Shown: positions 27,567 to 58,746 of the stretch, one piece after another
Numbering within the stretch: the stretch's first letter is position 1
Layout: each line of letters begins with the position of its first letter
NCBI GenBank assembly: GCA_016744475.1
Contig: JADGEH010000011.1
Coordinates: 1-64,000, forward strand
DNA: 64,000 bases
Source: Thiotrichales bacterium
GTDB lineage: Bacteria > Pseudomonadota > Gammaproteobacteria > Beggiatoales > Beggiatoaceae
Direction of reading: 5' to 3'
The notes under the pieces: model-generated
Told to the model about the DNA's origin: nothing
What the model saw: the letters and a program-made list of their open reading frames with translations, nothing else
Database searches by the model: none
Translations under genes and position numbers: made by a program

Positions 27567-28013
27567 TAAGACGGCATAAAAAGCAGTGTTTTTAGCGGGT
27601 GACTCCTTAAGTGAATGGCTGTGGGGCTATAGGGATGCCGCTCCGTTGGGACGAAACATCCTTCACTAAATGGCAGTGATGCGGCGCATGGAAACCTGTT
27701 AAATAGACCCCTGATACGTTTCTCTGCACAGATGGCGTAAACATACGTTCATCCATTGCTTTTATAAGTATCTGGGGTAATATTGCCCCCATTTATACGG
27801 TTTACAAAAATTTACAAAAGAAAATCCTGAGTGGGTGTGAGGAGCGTCATTAATTTACTCCCTTCACACAGACATTCCAAAGTCTATACAAAGGTCAAAC
27901 ATCGTAGCGAAAAGTCCCTCTTATAAATAAAGACCTATGTCATACAAAAGCGGGACCGCTAACGATAATAACCCCTCCCCAGTGAGACCATCAGCTTGCT
28001 GTCAATAGACTTA

Positions 28014-28174
28014 AGAACCTATACGAAGATGGGGAATCGAAGCGAAAATTCGCCATTTTGAGGCGGGTTTTTCGATTTTTTAAGGCGAATAGCGCGCTAT
28101 TTAACGAAAAAAAGCGGAAAACCTGACCAAAAGGGCGGGTTTGCAGCCGATGATCCTGTTTTCGTATAGGCTCT
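28014..28174. mobile_element. MITE-like element, family A, copy 2
   Basis: This 161-bp copy lies in the opposite orientation to the copy at 1616. Its left end has one change (AGAACCTATACGAA) and its right end is TTCGTATAGGCTCT. It lies 121 bases upstream of glgB. Confidence 0.85.
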
Positions 28175-28295
28175 TAAAAGTGATGCAAAGTCTCTTTTCA
28201 AGGTCAGCGCATGACATGAGTGACCTGTCTACTCATACCCACTTTTACGGCATCCCTGCACGCCTGGGAGCCTCACTCAAGGGAAAATCCATATC

Positions 28296-32735: not shown

Positions 32736-32890
32736 CGTAGACTCTCCAGCGTGTCGCTTTGCGCCACAACGACGCAGAGCGTCGCAGCCTGTATTCCCAC
32801 GCTCTGCGTCACTGCCATTCAGTGAAGCCCCAAAGGGGCGACATCTATATAGCCAGGGGCAACGCCCCTGGAATATGAGAGAAAAAACTC

Positions 32891-33050
32891 AGAGCCTATA
32901 CGAAGATGGGGAATCGAAGTGAAAATTCGCTATTTTGAGGCAGGTTTTTCGGTTTTTTAAGGTGAATAGCGGGCGTGTAACGAAAAAAAGCGGAAAATCT
33001 GACCAAAAGGGCGGATTTGCAGCCGATTATCCCGTTTTCGTATAGGCTCT
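32891..33050. mobile_element. MITE-like element, family A, copy 3
   Basis: This 160-bp copy has AGAGCCTATACGAA and TATAGGCTCT ends, flanked by TCA on both sides of the GAGCC...GGCTC boundaries (a candidate 3-bp target duplication). A further CCCAAAGGGGC / CCCAGGGCGATGCCCTGGG repeat region follows up to 33180. Confidence 0.85.
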
Positions 33051-33182
33051 CAGCTCTGAAAGGGCGACATATTCGCTCTATCCATCCCCCAGGGCGATGC
33101 CCTGGGCTGTATCAATCACGCCCCAAAGGGGCTAAAAATGCTTCACTGAATGGTAGTGATGAAGACCGTGGGAACGAGGGGG

Positions 33183-36100
33183 TTAAGCAGATGATGGCTT
33201 CCATCCCAACTTCAAACCAAACCGCTGTGCCAGCACCTCATAGCGTTGTTTGATCGCTTCCGGCGGTTTTTCCAGTTCTTGTGCCGCTCGTTCAATGCGG
33301 CTGGGCGAGATGATGGCTTGCGGGTCTAGCCCAGGTGCTACCGCATCCAAATCTCTGGACAACAACGTGCGGTCAAGCTCGTCCTCGCAGCTTTGCGCCA
33401 GCCCTTGCAGTGCGGCGCGGCGCAGGTCTTCATCTTCGTCCTGCCAATAAGACCGCAGCACCGCCAAGCCACGAGCGTCACCGATTTGACCCAAAGCATA
33501 CGCCGCCGCCCGCCACAGGTCTTCATCCTTCTGGACATCTTGTAGGCATTGCAGCAGAGCATCCACGGCGCGAGCGTCGCCGATTTGACCCAAAGCATAC
33601 GCCGCCGCCCGCCGTAGGTCTTTATCCTCTTGGGCATTTTGCAGACATTGCAGCAGGGTATCCACGGCGCGAGCGTCACCGATTTGACCCAAAGCATACG
33701 CCACCGCCTGCCGCCGGTCTTTATTCTCTTGGGCATCTTGCAGGCATGGCAGCAGAGCCTCCACGGCGCGAGTGTCACCGATTTGACCTAAAGCCTTCGC
33801 CGCCTCTTGCCGCAGGTCTTTATCCTCTTGAGCATCTTGCAGGCATGGCAGCAGAGCATCCACGGCGCGAGCGTCGCCGATTTGACCCAAAGCATACGCC
33901 GCCGCCCACCGCAAGTCTTTATCCTCTTGGGCATCTTGCAAGCATTGCAGCAGAGCATCCACAGCGCGAGCGTCGCCGATCTTCCCTAAAGCCTGGATAA
34001 TGCTGCGGCGGGTGTTGGTCGGAACTTGTGGCAGGTGCAACAGCAAGGCATCAACTGCCAGTGCGGTGCGTTCATTTTTGAAAATCAGAGTCAAAAAGTG
34101 CAATGCCTCGCTGTCACAGGCTGGATTGGCAGCCACCGCCAGCAATTGCACCAGTTGTTCTGGCGTGGGATGCCAGACAGGTTCTCTTTCTTTGCCATGC
34201 CCACCATTCAGCCAATATAAGGCAAATGCCGCCGCGTGGCTCAGTGCCACACCACCAGATAGCTTTTGAATCAGCGCGTCCGTCATGCCAGGCACTTGGC
34301 AGTTTTTGCCGTGAAAAGCCAAGCTCATCACGGTTAAGGCAAGGGCGGCGGTCTCGCGTTCATTACAGTCTAGCAGGCATTCCGCCTGGGTACTCAGCCA
34401 AGCGGTGAAAGTGCTTTCTTCCGTCGGTGCTTGTGCCGTTCGTACCATTGCGTAAAGCCCACCAGAATAGCTGCGTTTATCTACCTCATGCCGGAAAAAG
34501 TCATCCAGCAAGCATTCGCTCAAATCTCCCGCCCAACGCGAGTCCGCCAGTTCCATCGCCGCCGCGTCTAAGCTGGTGCGGTTATTTCCCAGTCCATCAC
34601 CTACGCCCACCTGCACCGCTAGCGTCTGTACCACTGCCCGCGCCACCGCCGCGCTGACATTCGGCTCGTCGGCCAGACACAACGCCGCTTGTACCGCACG
34701 GGCGCGGGCGGTGTTGGTTTCTCCTTCCAGAGGATGCAAAATCGCCGACAGCGCCGCGTCCACTGCGTCGTCATTGCAGGCCGCCAGACACAGGCGCAGT
34801 GCCTCGCGCCAGTTTTCGACCACGGCGAATTCTGTTCGGCCATATACTTTAGTTTTAATTTCTTTCACCAGCCCCGCCAGCGGCGCAATCACTTCGGCGA
34901 GAGATTTATCCTTGTCGCGGTTGTGGTAGTGCCCTTGCACCAGTGCCGTACCCGCCAGGTATTCTTGAAACGTCAGGTGGCGGAATTCGTACACGGGCAC
35001 GCTGTGACCGTTGTGCCGGACGTGACCGCTTTGAATCAACAACCCCGTGCGGGATTCCAGCAGGCGCAAAAAGGCTTCCGGGCTGTGTTGTTGCAGGGTG
35101 TGGATATTCGGATACTCCGCCCGTGCTTGGCACAGGTATTCCAGCACTTCATCCTCGCGCACCTGTTGCACACCGCGCTCGCACAGCGCGTGAGCCAGAT
35201 ATTCCAGTTGTGGCAACGCCTCGCGCGGGTCTAGCGGGGTATCCACCTCGCGCCGCCAGTTGAGTAGCACTTCCACGGCTTTGTTATACAAATCCACCCG
35301 ACGTTGCGGTAAGCGTCCAATTTTGCGCTTGATTAAAGCCATAGTGGTGAGCAGCATGGGGTTGCCCGTGAGTCGCTCGATGCGGTCGCTGCTGTGGATG
35401 TCGCGCATCAAGTCCGCCGCCGCTTCCGCCACGGGTTTACTCTTTTCGGTCAGCTCGCACCAACGCTGAGCGAATTCGTCTTTGTCTGCTTTCGACAAAT
35501 CCGCCACGGTGAGGTGCTCGAACCCGCTGCGGATGCGGTAGCCCATTTCGCGGTAGCCGACGATGCGCGATGTCACCACGATGGGCGCATCGGGAAAAAA
35601 CAGATGAATTTTTTCTAGGTCTTTGGCAAAACGCACCCGCGCTGCTGGGTCGGTGATTTCGTCCAGGCCGTCTACCAGCAGCAAAGCTTGCCCCTGTTCC
35701 AGCTTACTGCGCAGCAGTTCGCGCAAGGCATCGCATTCGGTCTCGCTCAATTGTGCTTTGCGCAGACTGTGACGCAGCATGTCATCAAGGATACCGCTGC
35801 TGTCTGGCGGCAAATCACGGCAGCGAATCAATATGGGTAGCCAGTCTTGCTTCGGCAGAGTGGTGATGTCGGGTAAATCACGCCAATCAGGATCGTTTTT
35901 CAGGCGCAGCAAATACGCGGTAGTCAGCCAGCGCAACAAGGTGCTTTTGCCTGCGCCAGGGTCGCCCAGCACCACCACCCGCCGCGCTTTTTCTAAGCGT
36001 GCCCCCAGGGAGACTTTGTTTTTATCCTCGCCTGACTCTTGGTTCTGCCAATCCCACCCAGCGGCGCGGCGTTGTTCCAGTGCCTTCAGCGTGGCATCGG

Positions 36101-36689
36101 TCACTTCGTCGTCCGCCTGAATTTCCAGCCGCATCCGCAGTGCCACGTACAGGCGGCGAATTTTCAAGTCTTGGGTCGCCAGATGGCGGTCATCGTCGCC
36201 CATTTCTGCCAAATCCACGATGTCGTAGGTCTTCAGCAGCAGGTCGCGGTAGCGGGTTTCGAGGTCGGTGTGTTGCAGGATTTGGCGGCTGTCGGCATCC
36301 AGGGGGTAGTATTTTTTCAGCGCGGCGATGAGGTCTTCGGTGGCTTTTTCGGTATCCTGCCAATAACGGGCAATGGCTTCGTCAAAAGACACCATGTCCA
36401 CGTCGGCATCTTCTTCCATCTGCACCACAAAAATTCGTACTCCGGCATGACGGCGGGCAGCCGTGACCACTTGCCGCCCCCATTTCGTGCCGACCGCACG
36501 CACCGTGCCGCATAAAATCACGGGCGCACCTTCGCTCAGCAACTTGGAGGCTTCCACCACCACGGATTCTCCCACCAATACCGTGCCTTCATGCGCGACT
36601 TCATATCCAGCGACACGAATCGGTGCAGCTAGTTGTTCGGCTAATTCTTCCTCGCTTTTAGCGTGGGCTATCAGAACTTTGATGGTCAT
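33183..36689 (-). CDS. TIR-like / NACHT / HEAT-repeat STAND NTPase
   Basis: The 1168-residue protein begins with a TIR-like alpha/beta domain (~1-130, VLIAHAKSEEELAEQLAAP...GYEVAHEGTVLVGES) that lacks an obvious catalytic Glu. The NACHT NTPase follows, with Walker A GDPGAGKSTLL (~242-252), Walker B ALLLVDGLDEITD and a sensor strand APIVVTSRIVGYR. A winged-helix or helical middle (LTFQEYLAGTALV) leads to a C-terminal PBS/HEAT array of 33-residue units (ALGQIGDARAVDALL). This is the NLR-like architecture of bacterial anti-phage sensors (bNACHT/Avs type). The N-terminal domain would be the effector or a docking domain and the repeats the ligand sensor. It lies 64 bases downstream of a stand-alone TIR gene, probably in one transcript. 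Confidence 0.9.
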   Translation of the reverse strand: MTIKVLIAHAKSEEELAEQLAAPIRVAGYEVAHEGTVLVGESVVVEASKLLSEGAPVILCGTVRAVGTKWGRQVVTAARRHAGVRIFVVQMEEDADVDMVSFDEAIARYWQDTEKATEDLIAALKKYYPLDADSRQILQHTDLETRYRDLLLKTYDIVDLAEMGDDDRHLATQDLKIRRLYVALRMRLEIQADDEVTDATLKALEQRRAAGWDWQNQESGEDKNKVSLGARLEKARRVVVLGDPGAGKSTLLRWLTTAYLLRLKNDPDWRDLPDITTLPKQDWLPILIRCRDLPPDSSGILDDMLRHSLRKAQLSETECDALRELLRSKLEQGQALLLVDGLDEITDPAARVRFAKDLEKIHLFFPDAPIVVTSRIVGYREMGYRIRSGFEHLTVADLSKADKDEFAQRWCELTEKSKPVAEAAADLMRDIHSSDRIERLTGNPMLLTTMALIKRKIGRLPQRRVDLYNKAVEVLLNWRREVDTPLDPREALPQLEYLAHALCERGVQQVREDEVLEYLCQARAEYPNIHTLQQHSPEAFLRLLESRTGLLIQSGHVRHNGHSVPVYEFRHLTFQEYLAGTALVQGHYHNRDKDKSLAEVIAPLAGLVKEIKTKVYGRTEFAVVENWREALRLCLAACNDDAVDAALSAILHPLEGETNTARARAVQAALCLADEPNVSAAVARAVVQTLAVQVGVGDGLGNNRTSLDAAAMELADSRWAGDLSECLLDDFFRHEVDKRSYSGGLYAMVRTAQAPTEESTFTAWLSTQAECLLDCNERETAALALTVMSLAFHGKNCQVPGMTDALIQKLSGGVALSHAAAFALYWLNGGHGKEREPVWHPTPEQLVQLLAVAANPACDSEALHFLTLIFKNERTALAVDALLLHLPQVPTNTRRSIIQALGKIGDARAVDALLQCLQDAQEDKDLRWAAAYALGQIGDARAVDALLPCLQDAQEDKDLRQEAAKALGQIGDTRAVEALLPCLQDAQENKDRRQAVAYALGQIGDARAVDTLLQCLQNAQEDKDLRRAAAYALGQIGDARAVDALLQCLQDVQKDEDLWRAAAYALGQIGDARGLAVLRSYWQDEDEDLRRAALQGLAQSCEDELDRTLLSRDLDAVAPGLDPQAIISPSRIERAAQELEKPPEAIKQRYEVLAQRFGLKLGWKPSSA
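33471..34010. repeat. 99-bp tandem repeats encoding HEAT units
   Basis: About six tandem units repeat at a 99-base spacing (for example GCGCGAGCGTCGCCGATTTG and close variants at 33568, 33867 and 33966). Each encodes one 33-residue HEAT-like unit. The units are nearly identical in DNA as well as in protein, indicating recent expansion or concerted evolution. Confidence 0.85.
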
Positions 36690-39194: not shown

Positions 39195-39232
39195 GCTGGG
39201 TTAGGCGCAGCGTATCCGACAAAATCTACTTA

Positions 39233-39392
39233 AGAGCCTATACGAAGATGGGGAATCGAAGCGAAAATTCGCTATTTTGAGGCGGGCTTTTCGGTTTTTT
39301 AAGGCTAATAGCGGGCGTGTGTTGATAAAAAGCGGAAAACCTGACCCAAAGGGCGGATTTGCAGCCGATTATCCCGTTTTCGTATAGGCTCT
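39233..39392. mobile_element. MITE-like element, family A, copy 4
   Basis: This 160-bp copy lies 38 bases after the Sel1/SEC-C gene. AGAGCCTATACGAA and TTCGTATAGGCTCT ends sit between TTA and TAA flanks. The interior has GCGGGCGTGTG in place of GCGGGCTATTT. Confidence 0.85.
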
Positions 39393-39431
39393 TAACTGAA
39401 TGGCAGTGATGCGGCGCATGGGAACGAATTA

Positions 39432-53383: not shown

Positions 53384-54391
53384 CTACGCTAAACTCTCCC
53401 AATAATCTTCTGGCATTTCCACACACATCTTCAAAGCCCCCACACTGCCGCAATATTCTGCATCCTGCACGCACACCGCACTGCCGCCACCATAAGCTTG
53501 CAGACTTTTCTCAATCGCGGTATCAATGCCTTTTAAGCGCGAACCGCCTCCTGCCACGATCACGTTATTGCGCAGTTTTTCCTGAAAATCGGGATCAAAG
53601 CTGCCAACTAATTGCTGTACCGCTTTACTGATCGGGTCGGTTAATGTCAAGCACGATTCTTTGAGTACATCGGTAATATCATATTCGCCAGGAATGCCTT
53701 GCTCGGTGAGCGTGACCAGCACAGGCTCTGATACTTGATAGACAAAACCATGCTTTTCTTTAATGCGCTTAATGATTTGTGGGCTTAATTGCACTTTGGG
53801 GTATTTTTGTAAAATGGCTTCAGTTAAGGTGCTGTCTAAAAAATTTCCCGCATAGGTTAAAGTCATTTGATCATCGGCTTCAGGCATGGAGCCGTGCATA
53901 CGGCATAAATCGGCGGTGCCTGCGCCAATATCCACAATCAAGCATTCATCAAAGCGATCAATAGAATACGCCACGGCAAAAGCTTCGCTGACCACGAGAA
54001 TCTTATCCAGCAAGCCTTTGCTTAAATCAATCAAGGCTTTTTTGTTATTAATGCTGGCTTGAGCGGGCACCCCAATCGCGGCAAACACTTGATCTTCTGG
54101 TTTTTTATCGGGCAAAGCTTGAGCGATCACATCTTGTAAAATCAACTTAGTCGCTTCAATCGCTTGCACATCTTCGCGCATGACACCATCCGCTAAAGGC
54201 CACACCATATTCAAAGACAAACGGTTTTCTAAGGCCTCTTCACCAATTAAATGGTCTTTATTTAAACGTTTTTGGGAAATCACATCTTTTGGATAGCCCA
54301 CGCAAGTGATGGTGGTAAAGCGTTGCCCTGTGGAGGTGGTGATGGTGGTGCGACTGGTGCCAAGATCAATGCCTACATGATAAATTGACAT
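53384..54391 (-). CDS. MamK-family actin-like ATPase
   Basis: At 335 residues this is a bacterial actin. The phosphate-1 loop is VGIDLGTSRTTITTSTG, followed by VGYPKDVISQKRL...IGEEALENR...WPLADGVM, which closely follows MamK. IVDIGAGTADLC forms phosphate-2 and VIVAGGGSRLKGID the adenosine motif. The ending MPEDYWESL parallels the MamK C-terminus. MamK filaments align magnetosomes; homologues in non-magnetic bacteria position other structures. No other magnetosome genes are present. GGAG lies 7 bases before ATG 54391. Upstream on the same strand are a small membrane protein and a P-type ATPase, with a MITE between the first two. Confidence 0.88.
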   Translation of the reverse strand: MSIYHVGIDLGTSRTTITTSTGQRFTTITCVGYPKDVISQKRLNKDHLIGEEALENRLSLNMVWPLADGVMREDVQAIEATKLILQDVIAQALPDKKPEDQVFAAIGVPAQASINNKKALIDLSKGLLDKILVVSEAFAVAYSIDRFDECLIVDIGAGTADLCRMHGSMPEADDQMTLTYAGNFLDSTLTEAILQKYPKVQLSPQIIKRIKEKHGFVYQVSEPVLVTLTEQGIPGEYDITDVLKESCLTLTDPISKAVQQLVGSFDPDFQEKLRNNVIVAGGGSRLKGIDTAIEKSLQAYGGGSAVCVQDAEYCGSVGALKMCVEMPEDYWESLA

Positions 54392-54446
54392 CTGCTGTCT
54401 CCTAAACTCTTAAAATGAAAAATAAAAAAGCTGTTACTCACCTTTA

Positions 54447-54607
54447 AGAGCCTATACGAAAACGGGATAATCGGCTGCAAATCCGCCCTTTTGGTCAGGT
54501 TTTCCGCTTTTTATCAACAAATAGCCCGCTATTCGCCTTAAAAAATCGAAAAACCTGCCTCAAAATAGCGCATTTTCGCTTCGATTCCCCATCTTCGTAT
54601 AGGCTCT
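54447..54607. mobile_element. MITE-like element, family A, copy 5
   Basis: This 161-bp copy lies between the small membrane protein gene and the mamK-like gene and is nearly identical to the copy at 1616 (same orientation). It separates what may once have been a tighter operon. Confidence 0.85.
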
Positions 54608-54650
54608 TATGCTATAAAACATAGGTTTAGCAACAGCCTATTAGGGTGTG

Positions 54651-55010
54651 TTATGCGGTTTCGCGCAGCTTGATATTGTCATCTACGACACGTTTGAGCA
54701 TCGCAAGTTTGCTGCTAGAAGGGGGAGCGGTTTTGATTTGAGCTGTGGGTGCATATTCTGGCTCAACAGGCACAGTATTAGGCGCGGCGGTTAATTGCTG
54801 AGCCAAGGCTTGAAACTGTTCTTTGAGTTCACTGTTATAAGCCTCTAGTTTTTTATCAATTTCAGCCTTGTCGGTGCTGGACTGCAAAGCCCGCCAGACT
54901 AACATGCCACCGATAAAAGACAGTACCGCAACGGGTGCCAGCAAAACGCCGCCTGCCAGCTTGGCTTTACCCGCACCGCTTAAGCCTTGTATTAGATGGG
55001 GATTGAGCAT
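54651..55010 (-). CDS. Small single-pass membrane protein
   Basis: The 119-residue protein starts MLNPHLIQGLSGAGKAKLAGG. One membrane helix (VLLAPVAVLSFIGGMLVWRAL) is followed by a charged helical coiled-coil region (KAEIDKKLEAYNSELKEQFQALAQQL). A Pro-rich linker leads to a C-terminal helix (SSKLAMLKRVVDDNIKLRE). I recognise no family. AAAGGA sits 7 bases before ATG 55010. Lying 52 bases downstream of the ATPase gene and upstream of the MamK-like gene, it could tether the filament to a membrane; that is inference. Confidence 0.7.
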   Translation of the reverse strand: MLNPHLIQGLSGAGKAKLAGGVLLAPVAVLSFIGGMLVWRALQSSTDKAEIDKKLEAYNSELKEQFQALAQQLTAAPNTVPVEPEYAPTAQIKTAPPSSSKLAMLKRVVDDNIKLRETA

Positions 55011-55062
55011 GGTGTTTTCCTTTCTTCAAGCTATTGAATGATAAGACATCTAGCGTCGCACA

Positions 55063-57168
55063 CTAAATCGTCAACGGTTCAACCGTGAGATCAATATAAG
55101 GTGATGAACCATTGGCTACGGGAGAGGGCATGGGACGGCCTTCAATAATATCTTCTTCACGAGTTTGTTGAGATTGATCACGATCTTGAGCCAGCCAACC
55201 AGGTTTTTTCGCATCTTTAAAGCCCCAAGCAAAACCGCCTGCATACAATAAGCTGGATTGCAAAGGCCCTAGACCTGCCAGCGGTACCAGCATCGCGTTG
55301 CTGAGTCCAAAGCCTAGCCAGAACAATAGATTGCCGCTGAGGCGTACTTGTAAATGCACCGCCATATCAAAGCTGTCGCGTAAGTGGGTGAGTTCATCGT
55401 TTAATAAGACGATTTGTGCGGTGTTGCGGGTGATTTCTGCGGCACTGGATAAGCAGACGGAGACATTGGCTTGTTTCATCGCAATGGCATCATTGACGCC
55501 GTCGCCAATAAAGCACACGCGGTGTCCTTGCTGTTGTAGATTGCGAATGAGTGCCGCTTTGTCTTGTGGTAAGACTTCGGCAAATACGCGCTGGATGCCC
55601 AAAGAATGCGCCAATCGTTCAGTAGGCGCGAGTTGATCGCCGGATACCACGGCAAAGTGTTTTAAGCCTCGATCACGTAGTTGTTGTAACACCTGGGGCA
55701 CTTCTTCGCGCAAACGTGGATATAACTCAATAACACCTTGGAGTTTTTTATCCACAGCAATGAAAATAAAGGTGTTGCCCACGGAGTCGTGCAGCAAGCG
55801 GTTAATGTGACTTGGCAAGTGATAATCGTCGGTCACTTCTTGGATAAAGCGCTGGCTACCGACGTGTACTGCATGACCTTGAATGCTGACTTGAATGCCA
55901 AAGCCAATGTTGTAATAACTATCATCCACTTCGGGCAATTCCAGCTTTTCTGCTTGTGCTTGTTTGATGATGGCGGTGGCGATGGGGTGTTGTAAATGCT
56001 GCTCTGCGGCGGCGGCCAAGCGCAATAATTGAGTCTGATGAATATCGCCACAACTCACCACCTGCGCCACTTCTGGCTCGGTATGTGTCAGCGTCCCGGT
56101 TTTGTCGAATAATACGGTGTCAATCCACGGCAGTTCTTCCAACACGCGCCCGTCTTTAATCAAAATGCCTTGTTCTGCCGCCCATTGCAGGTGTGTTGAG
56201 GTTTGCAAAGACAGCAAAGCACGCACCGTGTTAGTCGGCGCACTAAAAAGCAGTGCAGTAGCAGGGCTTAAACCAAAAAATAGCGCAGTTGCACCGCTGA
56301 CGGCTAATAGGGGTGCAGCCATATTGTCCGCCCAAGCTTCCCCTTTTAGCTGTAAATCGGTTTTGTAATCGCGGGTTTGTTCTAGCAGTTTGTTAAGTTG
56401 ATGGGCTTGACTATCTGCGCCGCTGTGGCTGGCTTTGACTTCAATCGTGCCGCCAATGAGCAGTGAGCCCGCCATCACTTGATCGCCCACAAAGCGCTCA
56501 ACGGGACTGGCTTCTCCGGTTAATGACTGTTGATCAATTAAAGCGCTGCCACGAGTGATGAAGCCATCAATGGGCAAAAATTCACCCATTTTGATCATCA
56601 CAATGTCGCCTTCGCACAACTCATCCAGCGGAATTTGCATTTCTATGCCGTCTTTCAGCACCCATATGTGCTCTGGGTGCTGAATAAACGCTTGGGTCAA
56701 ATGGGCTTTGGTGTTTTCTTTGCCCTCTTCCACCATGCGGCAACCCAAGTGATACACCCAGTTTTGTACAGCGGCGGCTAAATAACCGCCTGTGATCACG
56801 CATAAACCTGTGACTGCCAGACTTAAACCGTGATTATTAATGTTTTTTTCTTTGCGAAAATTGTCGCGGGCTAAATCCAACATAGGCGCTGCGGTATAAG
56901 TGATGAGTCCTAAATTAAGCAAGCTCAGCGGCGGATAAAAAATATACGCCACGGTAGTGGACATCAAAGCTGCGGTGCTGACACGGAAATGGTGTTTGTG
57001 TTCACTCAAAGAGACCACCGCCGTGTTTTGTTCTATAGCGTGCGCTGTCGTTTTAGGGGCATCCAAAGGGGCAGGTTGAGGATTGTGAGGATAACGATGT
57101 TTGAGTTCTTTATGGATGCGTGAGCCAATATATGCGCCCAAAACAATGCCTAAATTGATAAAAATCAT
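55063..57168 (-). CDS. P1B-type ATPase-like protein lacking the CPC motif
   Basis: The 701-residue P-type ATPase has the actuator loop LTGEASPVER, the phosphorylated Asp in DKTGTLT, the P1B-type HP dipeptide (LQHPIATAI) and the hinge GDGVNDAIAMKQA. In heavy-metal ATPases the sixth membrane helix carries CPC, CPH or SPC; here it reads SAPTNTVRALL, and there is no N-terminal CxxC metal domain, so the substrate is unclear. An N-terminal cytosolic segment (HKELKHRYPHNPQPAPLDAP) and a C-terminal acidic tail are extra. AGGA lies 8 bases before ATG. It is first in a three-gene same-strand set with a small membrane protein and the MamK-like gene. Confidence 0.88.
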   Translation of the reverse strand: MIFINLGIVLGAYIGSRIHKELKHRYPHNPQPAPLDAPKTTAHAIEQNTAVVSLSEHKHHFRVSTAALMSTTVAYIFYPPLSLLNLGLITYTAAPMLDLARDNFRKEKNINNHGLSLAVTGLCVITGGYLAAAVQNWVYHLGCRMVEEGKENTKAHLTQAFIQHPEHIWVLKDGIEMQIPLDELCEGDIVMIKMGEFLPIDGFITRGSALIDQQSLTGEASPVERFVGDQVMAGSLLIGGTIEVKASHSGADSQAHQLNKLLEQTRDYKTDLQLKGEAWADNMAAPLLAVSGATALFFGLSPATALLFSAPTNTVRALLSLQTSTHLQWAAEQGILIKDGRVLEELPWIDTVLFDKTGTLTHTEPEVAQVVSCGDIHQTQLLRLAAAAEQHLQHPIATAIIKQAQAEKLELPEVDDSYYNIGFGIQVSIQGHAVHVGSQRFIQEVTDDYHLPSHINRLLHDSVGNTFIFIAVDKKLQGVIELYPRLREEVPQVLQQLRDRGLKHFAVVSGDQLAPTERLAHSLGIQRVFAEVLPQDKAALIRNLQQQGHRVCFIGDGVNDAIAMKQANVSVCLSSAAEITRNTAQIVLLNDELTHLRDSFDMAVHLQVRLSGNLLFWLGFGLSNAMLVPLAGLGPLQSSLLYAGGFAWGFKDAKKPGWLAQDRDQSQQTREEDIIEGRPMPSPVANGSSPYIDLTVEPLTI

Positions 57169-57401: not shown

Positions 57402-58205
57402 TTATGTCATCGCAGTGAATTTTTTAATGCTGGGTTTAAACATAGAACGAGGATTTAATTTAGCGTTCAATGTTCTCCACATGGACGTTAGTTGTTCTGT
57501 CTGGCTCTTTTTCACTTCTATTACATATAAAAAACCATTTGGATTACTAGAAGGAAAATCATCTATCATTTCTAATACTTTAAATTCCCCCGCTACGTTT
57601 AATACATGACTGGCTTTATTGATTAACTCCAACATGGATTCAGGTTCAAATGTATGGAAATGTATGTTTATTTCATGGTGATTGGAAATACTTGTTTTAT
57701 AGGTGGCGACTAACTTGGCTTTTTCTTCATCCACTTGGTCTGGTGGCGTAGCAGGTGAATATTGATTCCAATCCACACCTAAGACAAAATCTTCAATATG
57801 TGTACCATCCGCTTGAGTGACCTTGTTTTTATAATCATCAATGATATGTTCAACAGTAGTTAAAGGACGCAAATGATCAAAAGTTTTTTTACGATGAGGT
57901 ACGACCATATAGATAATGCCGTTATGCTGTAAAACTCTGTACCATTCGAGAAAGGCCGTTAATGGGTTTGCCACATGTTCAATGACATGGGATGTCACCA
58001 CATAGGATAAAGAACAGTCTTTAAAGGGTAAATCACTACAATCACCATAATAATCAGCCAGCGTTTTTTCATTAGCATATTCATTAAAGCGATCAACATA
58101 AACAGGGCTTATATCTGGAATGGGGGTTTTAAAAGCACCAATTTCAACCCCTGTTTCTTTGCCTGTGTCTGTTAGGTATTTTTTAACAATCTCTTGATGT
58201 TCCAT
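57402..58205 (-). CDS. SAM-dependent methyltransferase (class I-like)
   Basis: The 267-residue protein contains a shortened Rossmann methyltransferase core. GVEIGAFKTPIPDISPVYVDRF stands for motif I and the acidic strand end, and FKDCSLSYVVTSHVIEHVANPLTAF gives the H-V-I-E-H signature of Methyltransf_11-type enzymes. YRVLQHNGIIYMVVPHRKKTFD is motif III. The C-terminal half adds an extra helical/strand region. Such proteins often act on sugars or lipids, but no glycan cluster is nearby and the substrate is unknown. It has a weak ribosome site and appears monocistronic. Confidence 0.82.
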   Translation of the reverse strand: MEHQEIVKKYLTDTGKETGVEIGAFKTPIPDISPVYVDRFNEYANEKTLADYYGDCSDLPFKDCSLSYVVTSHVIEHVANPLTAFLEWYRVLQHNGIIYMVVPHRKKTFDHLRPLTTVEHIIDDYKNKVTQADGTHIEDFVLGVDWNQYSPATPPDQVDEEKAKLVATYKTSISNHHEINIHFHTFEPESMLELINKASHVLNVAGEFKVLEMIDDFPSSNPNGFLYVIEVKKSQTEQLTSMWRTLNAKLNPRSMFKPSIKKFTAMT

Positions 58206-58746
58206 TCTGTGTGTCTTTTTTAACCTGTGATGAAAATGATAGGTCGTCGATAGCCAACTCGTATGATGTATCTAATTTTAGAGGTGAGATTCTGCACAAA
58301 ATCTCAACTTTGCCAAGTACCCTCTCAGTGGTTGACATAAATAGACTTGTTGCAAAATTGCTTTAAGTGGTGTCATTCCTAAGAAGTTGCCTGGACAAGC
58401 CTAATGAAAGTGATAGCGAGGTTAAGCTGGTTTGACGCGAATAGTCACAGCATTTTAAGCGGTATTATGTCTAAAAGCCTACAAAGTCTTGCTTTTTTTC
58501 TAGTTCTATCTCGGTGGCTGTGGTATTTTTGCGCACCAACTCCCCTTCAGAGCCTATACGAAAATGGGATAATCGGCTGCAAACCCGCCTTTTTGGTCAG
58601 GTTTTCCGCTTTTTATCAACAAATAGCCCGCTATTCACCTTAAAAAATCGAAAAATCTGTCTCAAAATGGCGCATTTTTGCTTCGATTTCCCATCTTCAT
58701 ATAGGCTCTCAAACTCACCTGACAGCTTATCTCTATCACTGATTTT
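58206..58746. other. Intergenic with IS-end debris and a MITE
   Basis: A TAGACTTGTTGCAAAA end (58344-58359) matches family B termini. The ~180 bases after it have no clear coding content. A family A MITE follows (58549-58709), and then malQ. Confidence 0.5.
58549..58709. mobile_element. MITE-like element, family A, copy 6
   Basis: This 161-bp copy has ends AGAGCCTATACGAA / TATAGGCTCT and TCA on both sides of the GAGCC...GGCTC boundaries, a candidate target duplication. It carries a few substitutions (TTCATATAGG) and lies 37 bases upstream of malQ. Confidence 0.85.

Follow-up and report, generated by a model that had tools for sequence, protein, structure and literature searches.

What does an actin-like protein do in a sulfur bacterium, and to what does it attach? 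The question is raised by a locus at positions 53,384 to 57,168 of a 64,000-nucleotide stretch of DNA (the window; positions 1 to 64,000 of contig JADGEH010000011.1, Thiotrichales bacterium, Beggiatoaceae, assembly GCA_016744475.1), where three minus-strand open reading frames (ORFs) encode an actin of 335 amino acids (aa), a small single-pass membrane protein of 119 aa and a P-type ATPase of 701 aa. A preliminary description of this DNA took the three to be one module. The arrangement that it gave (one strand, two genes 52 bases apart) is borne out by the ORFs, the 52 bases lying between ATPase and small protein; of the module, the actin and the membrane protein hold together as a conserved unit, but the ATPase does not stand as a third member. 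The actin and the small protein, henceforth the adaptor, are a two-part system with a portable tail which is, to our knowledge, undescribed in the literature. The evidence set out below supports a conserved pairing of an actin-like filament former with a membrane/coiled-coil protein. The pair is found both in large sulfur bacteria and far outside them, and it comes without magnetosome genes. Its features in the window are as follows.

53384..54391, minus strand: Bbp-type actin-like ATPase, 335 aa (NCBIfam scores, identity to Bbp loci, tree, PDB match).
54651..55010, minus strand: bitopic adaptor, 119 aa, with transmembrane (TM) helix, coiled coil, linker and conserved C-terminal helix (family alignment, co-occurrence with actin, AlphaFold).
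54888..54953, minus strand: transmembrane helix predicted for the adaptor at about residues 20-41 (hydropathy peak of 2.15 from residue 20).
54663..54707, minus strand: core of the C-terminal tail, LAMLKRVVDDNIKLR, residues 102-116, putative actin-binding helix (42 distinct tails; blind test in distant phyla).

The actin is close to MamK, as had been proposed, but it belongs elsewhere. Its best sequence match in the PDB is a MamK chain (5ljw, E=9e-77), the best fold match of its predicted structure is the MamK filament 5ljv (the model, built from 14 sequences and of moderate quality, with a predicted local distance difference test score of 78, served for fold identity only), and its nucleotide motifs are intact (G7-D9-L10-G11-T12, E136, D154-I155-G156 and A280-G281-G282-G283). 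Against the NCBIfam MamK model (NF040964), however, it scores 389.9 bits, missing the cut-off of 400 by 10 bits. In a tree of 97 rows it lies within a 37-row Bbp clade (support 100/100), with the proteins of Candidatus (Ca.) Electrothrix gigas and Desulfonema, while MamK of magnetotactic bacteria (31 rows) makes a clade of its own (100/100) that does not include it; the Planctomycetota and Hydrogenedentota relatives also branch apart from Bbp. The nearest row is that of a same-genus metagenome-assembled genome (MAG) labelled Thiomargarita sp. (85% identity), and most other Bbp loci, those of Ca. Electrothrix gigas and Desulfonema among them, are 63-73% identical. BeeR of the Verrucomicrobiota is likewise a MamK-related actin of non-magnetotactic bacteria, but the window protein falls far below its NCBIfam cut-off (210 bits, as against 530). 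The preliminary description also saw no other magnetosome genes, and this is supported as far as one marker goes, magnetochrome (PF18509), which is missing from the window genome and two relatives and is found in 4/4 mamK-bearing control genomes. Clade, missed cut-off and absent magnetochrome together lead us to reject a magnetosome MamK; by its sequence, the window actin is a Bbp, from a separate clade. Bbp ("big bacteria protein") was described in 2023 from Ca. Electrothrix gigas, Beggiatoa, Thiomargarita, Thioploca and Desulfonema, which lack magnetosomes (PMC10580974).

An alignment of the small proteins encoded upstream of Bbp in the family genomes shows near-invariance at the C-terminus, preceded by a coiled coil that varies and, at the N-terminus, by a membrane helix; this alignment and the hydropathy profile agree with the membrane helix and coiled coil originally ascribed to the window protein. 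Across 19 aligned partners the only invariant residues are N112, L115 and R116, and among 42 distinct tails N is found at position 11 in 42, L at position 14 in 39 and R at position 15 in 37, with a core consensus F/M-L/F-x-x-I/L-I/V/L-x-D/E-N-V/L/I-x-L-R. For the window adaptor AlphaFold predicts a long helix over residues 24-75 and, with confidence, a terminal helix over residues 99-118, with a disordered linker (79-94) between them. An N-terminal TM helix is present in 27 of 30 Bbp-clade partners. Among the 25 families listed for the scanned members, Pfam offers no relatives, WH2 included, with only scattered weak matches to coiled coils. In Ca. Electrothrix gigas the second gene of the bbp cluster was reported as a hypothetical protein without conserved domains, its function left open (PMC10580974); it is the 226-aa gene (L067:8460-9140) lying 3 bp upstream of bbp, and it shares the tail.

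The tail keeps company with the actin. Of the 37 non-redundant Bbp loci, 30 encode a protein with the tail on the strand of the actin and no more than 3.2 kb upstream of it, in most cases at a distance of 0-150 bp, so that the small membrane protein, which the preliminary description would have had stay with the actin in relatives, does so almost everywhere. Of the seven loci lacking it, one is at a contig edge (L039), one is in a genome with adaptors elsewhere (L050), one belongs to a genome outside the search (L059), and four are those of the Desulfobacterota-type genomes taken up below. Among 58 genomes of relatives, the tail occurs in 15/16 that have the actin and 0/42 that do not (Fisher P=5e-13); in the tail-less exception (G002) the actin lies where a contig begins, and a weak match in another genome (G031, E=5e-5) ends before the tail. 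In one further family (f58), the genomes with Bbp have the tail directly upstream of it in 4/4 cases. A blind test reached farther: a scoring matrix made from 26 Bbp-clade tails was run over 1367 ORFs from 29 distant loci of Planctomycetota/Hydrogenedentota type that had been selected by their actin alone, and ranks 1-11 all went to the ORF immediately upstream of the actin (hypergeometric P~1e-20).

What precedes the tail varies from lineage to lineage. The upstream partners brought out by the blind test have no membrane helix; at one locus (L077) a GGDEF domain is found in the upstream protein, the end of which resembles the tail but scores below threshold. In four Desulfobacterota-type genomes the actin stands alone, with no membrane version of the adaptor beside it, and each genome has exactly one tail-bearing protein elsewhere, of 359-374 aa, with an N-terminal receiver domain in both of the two that were scanned with Pfam. 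The architecture in these genomes (L189-L192) is receiver domain, variable middle, coiled coil and tail; by eye, the phosphoacceptor Asp of the receiver domain appears to be replaced by Gly.

Two other arrangements may be recorded here. In a Mariprofundus sp. MAG (L061:5615-16578), ~7 kb separate a Bbp-adaptor pair from another actin, which is of MamK type (450.9 bits) and is followed, by eye, by a possible cation-diffusion-facilitator gene; this would put both actin systems at one locus. Another genome (G019, contigs C1, C18 and C22) holds multiple copies and degenerate fragments of the pair, which on C1 and C22 have a DNA-methylase-like gene beside them.

How might the two proteins work together? 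We think it probable, on the strength of sequence comparison, that this is a two-gene actin-adaptor system, in which the tail docks on Bbp and the N-terminus anchors the filament to a membrane. Bbp, judging by its homology and intact motifs, would polymerise into filaments with ATP. The adaptor would be held in a membrane by its single N-terminal helix and would have both its coiled coil and its C-terminus on the cytoplasmic side, an orientation suggested by the shortness of the N-terminus and by the kind of partner proposed. A helix formed by its last ~18 residues would dock on Bbp, as the ends of ParR and arcadin-2 do on ParM and crenactin, and the docking site would most likely be, as there, the hydrophobic groove between subdomains. 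Docking may either tether filaments at a membrane or nucleate them there; the adaptor probably ties filament to membrane. Other lineages would have replaced the anchor, by a receiver-domain protein or by a soluble one of coiled-coil/GGDEF type, and retained the tail. The ATPase would be an optional neighbour. A more general proposition, for which we would put the chances at about even, is that the tail amounts to a portable actin-recruitment code for this MamK-related branch of actins, from Pseudomonadota to Planctomycetota, a single short C-terminal helix being mounted on interchangeable anchors (a membrane helix, a receiver domain or a GGDEF/coiled-coil part) and recruiting the actins in a manner comparable to that of WH2-like motifs with eukaryotic actin.

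Several points weigh against the anchoring proposal. The genomes compared are kin and the Fisher and hypergeometric P-values overstate their independence; a Planctomycetota clade of 16 rows has no upstream tail gene; and the topology that puts the adaptor C-terminus inside is one that we infer. The tail could also act on the filament in the opposite sense. Arcadin-2, whose C-terminal helix likewise follows an unstructured linker, depolymerises crenactin filaments (PMC5173319), and the adaptor could by analogy be mainly a regulator that caps, sequesters or disassembles Bbp, confining filament growth to the membrane or keeping it away from there; the receiver-domain and GGDEF-type N-termini found in other lineages have a regulatory look. 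The prevalence of membrane anchors with coiled coils among Bbp-clade partners is nevertheless a better fit to a tether or nucleator than to a free sequesterer, and we consider a mainly regulatory role unlikely. The tail could, instead, bind some other conserved protein, its link with actin being one of shared regulation only: tail-Bbp binding, too, is something that we infer. But the Desulfobacterota genes co-occur with actin despite being unlinked to it, and tail and actin persist jointly while the rest of the partner changes, which makes a different binding target highly improbable.

The third reading, that of the preliminary description, makes the actin, the membrane protein and the P1B-like ATPase one dedicated three-part system for positioning an organelle or transporter, and in the window the shared strand and 52-bp gap speak for it.

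55063..57168, minus strand: divergent P1B-like P-type ATPase, 701 aa, without a CPC motif, a loosely associated and non-constant member of the locus (TIGR01525 at 380.8 bits, alignment, paralogue family).

By profile it is a P1B-like ATPase (the TIGR01525 cut-off is 346): like P1B-type metal ATPases it has the motifs of the A, P and N domains (TGEA, DKTGT, HP and GDGVND), but SAPTN stands in place of the CPC of TM4, and a CPC/SPC/TPC-type metal motif was found in none of 52 paralogues examined. As part of a three-gene unit it fares poorly. It adjoins actin in 3/16 family genomes and is absent from most Bbp loci; in a same-genus relative (G001) the counterpart of the ATPase, which is 63% identical to it and also has SAPTN, lies beside an ExbD-like gene on one contig (C163), and adaptor and actin are on another (C82), with a different gene upstream of them. 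The neighbourhood comparison in relatives thus goes against the ATPase. There are 4-20 family members per genome, reaching 17-20, also in relatives that have no actin; those adjacent to actin are scattered through the ATPase tree in no single subfamily, and order and strand vary. Still, about six lineages have an ATPase of this family no more than 1.8 kb from Bbp, when the expectation is ~0.3 (a post hoc figure, weakened by local clustering of the ATPases), two of them flank Bbp in one genome (G003), and there are none at 2-10 kb from Bbp in the loci examined. On the tree, the sister species and the paralogue counts we reject the ATPase as a dedicated subunit; an obligate triple is largely refuted, and a dedicated three-part system we regard as very unlikely. 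The link between ATPase and Bbp is real but loose and unexplained, and the ATPase is mostly a bystander.

The ATPases merit notice for themselves. Many of the paralogues adjoin polyketide synthase/nonribosomal peptide synthetase, methyltransferase, sulfotransferase or thioesterase genes, and the expansion of this P1B-derived, CPC-less family, with up to 20 matches per genome, is seen in G000, G006, G017, G018, G036 and others (L131-L150). The FezA protein of ferrosomes (DUF6110), encoded beside a P1B-6 ATPase, was sought with PF19605, which found no match in 200 genomes, and likewise none in the controls, so that the negative carries no weight.

Two further features complete the locus.

54445..54609, no strand assigned: 165-bp element resembling a miniature inverted-repeat transposable element (MITE), with 22-bp terminal inverted repeats, between the adaptor and actin genes (repeat search of the genome).
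57402..58205, minus strand: S-adenosylmethionine methyltransferase-like gene upstream of the ATPase (PF08241, E=4.8e-11; not conserved at other Bbp loci).

The MITE-like insertion takes up most of the 259 bases between adaptor and actin and, since it accounts for the excess, the ancestral gap would have been ~95 bases, as in relatives. It is near-palindromic, with at least 40 genome copies at 95-99% identity (589 candidates) and other window copies near 1613-1776, 28013-28175, 32890-33051, 39232-39393 and 58548-58710; MITEs have been discussed for Thiomargarita nelsonii (PMC4853749). The methyltransferase-like gene probably has no connection with the actin. In the locus region, no promoter or terminator signal exceeds those of shuffled sequence. 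Elsewhere in the window (33183-36689), a GC-richer stretch contains a NACHT ATPase of 1168 aa with C-terminal HEAT repeats.

Bbp was reported without a partner and with a speculative function; the conserved 18-residue tail of a near-obligate partner now provides a handle that can be tested directly. Should the tail bind, it would show how a non-magnetosome branch of actins attaches to membranes or signalling proteins, which would be relevant to giant sulfur bacteria, cable bacteria and Planctomycetota, and would extend the adaptor-plus-actin design past plasmids and magnetosomes.

How does the system compare with those already known? The window actin belongs to the same family as the published Bbp, the function of which was linked to cell size; the actin-adaptor module, in contrast, is not limited to big cells. 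In the MamK-MamJ system, as in the window, an adaptor gene lies directly upstream of a related actin: mamJ precedes mamK, and MamJ tethers magnetosomes to MamK (PMC10653835; PMC13052382), while in strain MV-1 the adaptor gene directly upstream of mamK is mg-1g50 (PMC10653835). The differences are the separate clade of the window actin and the absence of magnetochrome genes from its genome. A MamJ homologue was considered for the adaptor and rejected: at the mamK loci examined the upstream protein is a different one and lacks the tail, which is also missing from 12/12 MamK-only genomes. Several proteins upstream of true mamK (L151-L180) share a different end, approximately VESLGSGVANLLGDAVGGVV, possibly a MamJ-type counterpart of the tail.

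With ParM-ParR and crenactin-arcadin-2 the likeness is one of design, not of demonstrated sequence kinship: an operon-linked partner carries a short C-terminal helix behind a non-conserved linker. ParR has a DNA-binding domain where the adaptor has a membrane helix (or, in other lineages, a receiver domain or coiled coil), and binding in the groove, which is known for ParR and arcadin-2, is what we propose for the adaptor. Arcadin-2 has a conserved C-terminal helix after an unstructured linker, and its last 17 residues bind the hydrophobic groove of crenactin, the same type of groove in which ParR binds ParM (PMC5173319); the predicted layout of the adaptor, helix-linker-helix, matches that of arcadin-2.

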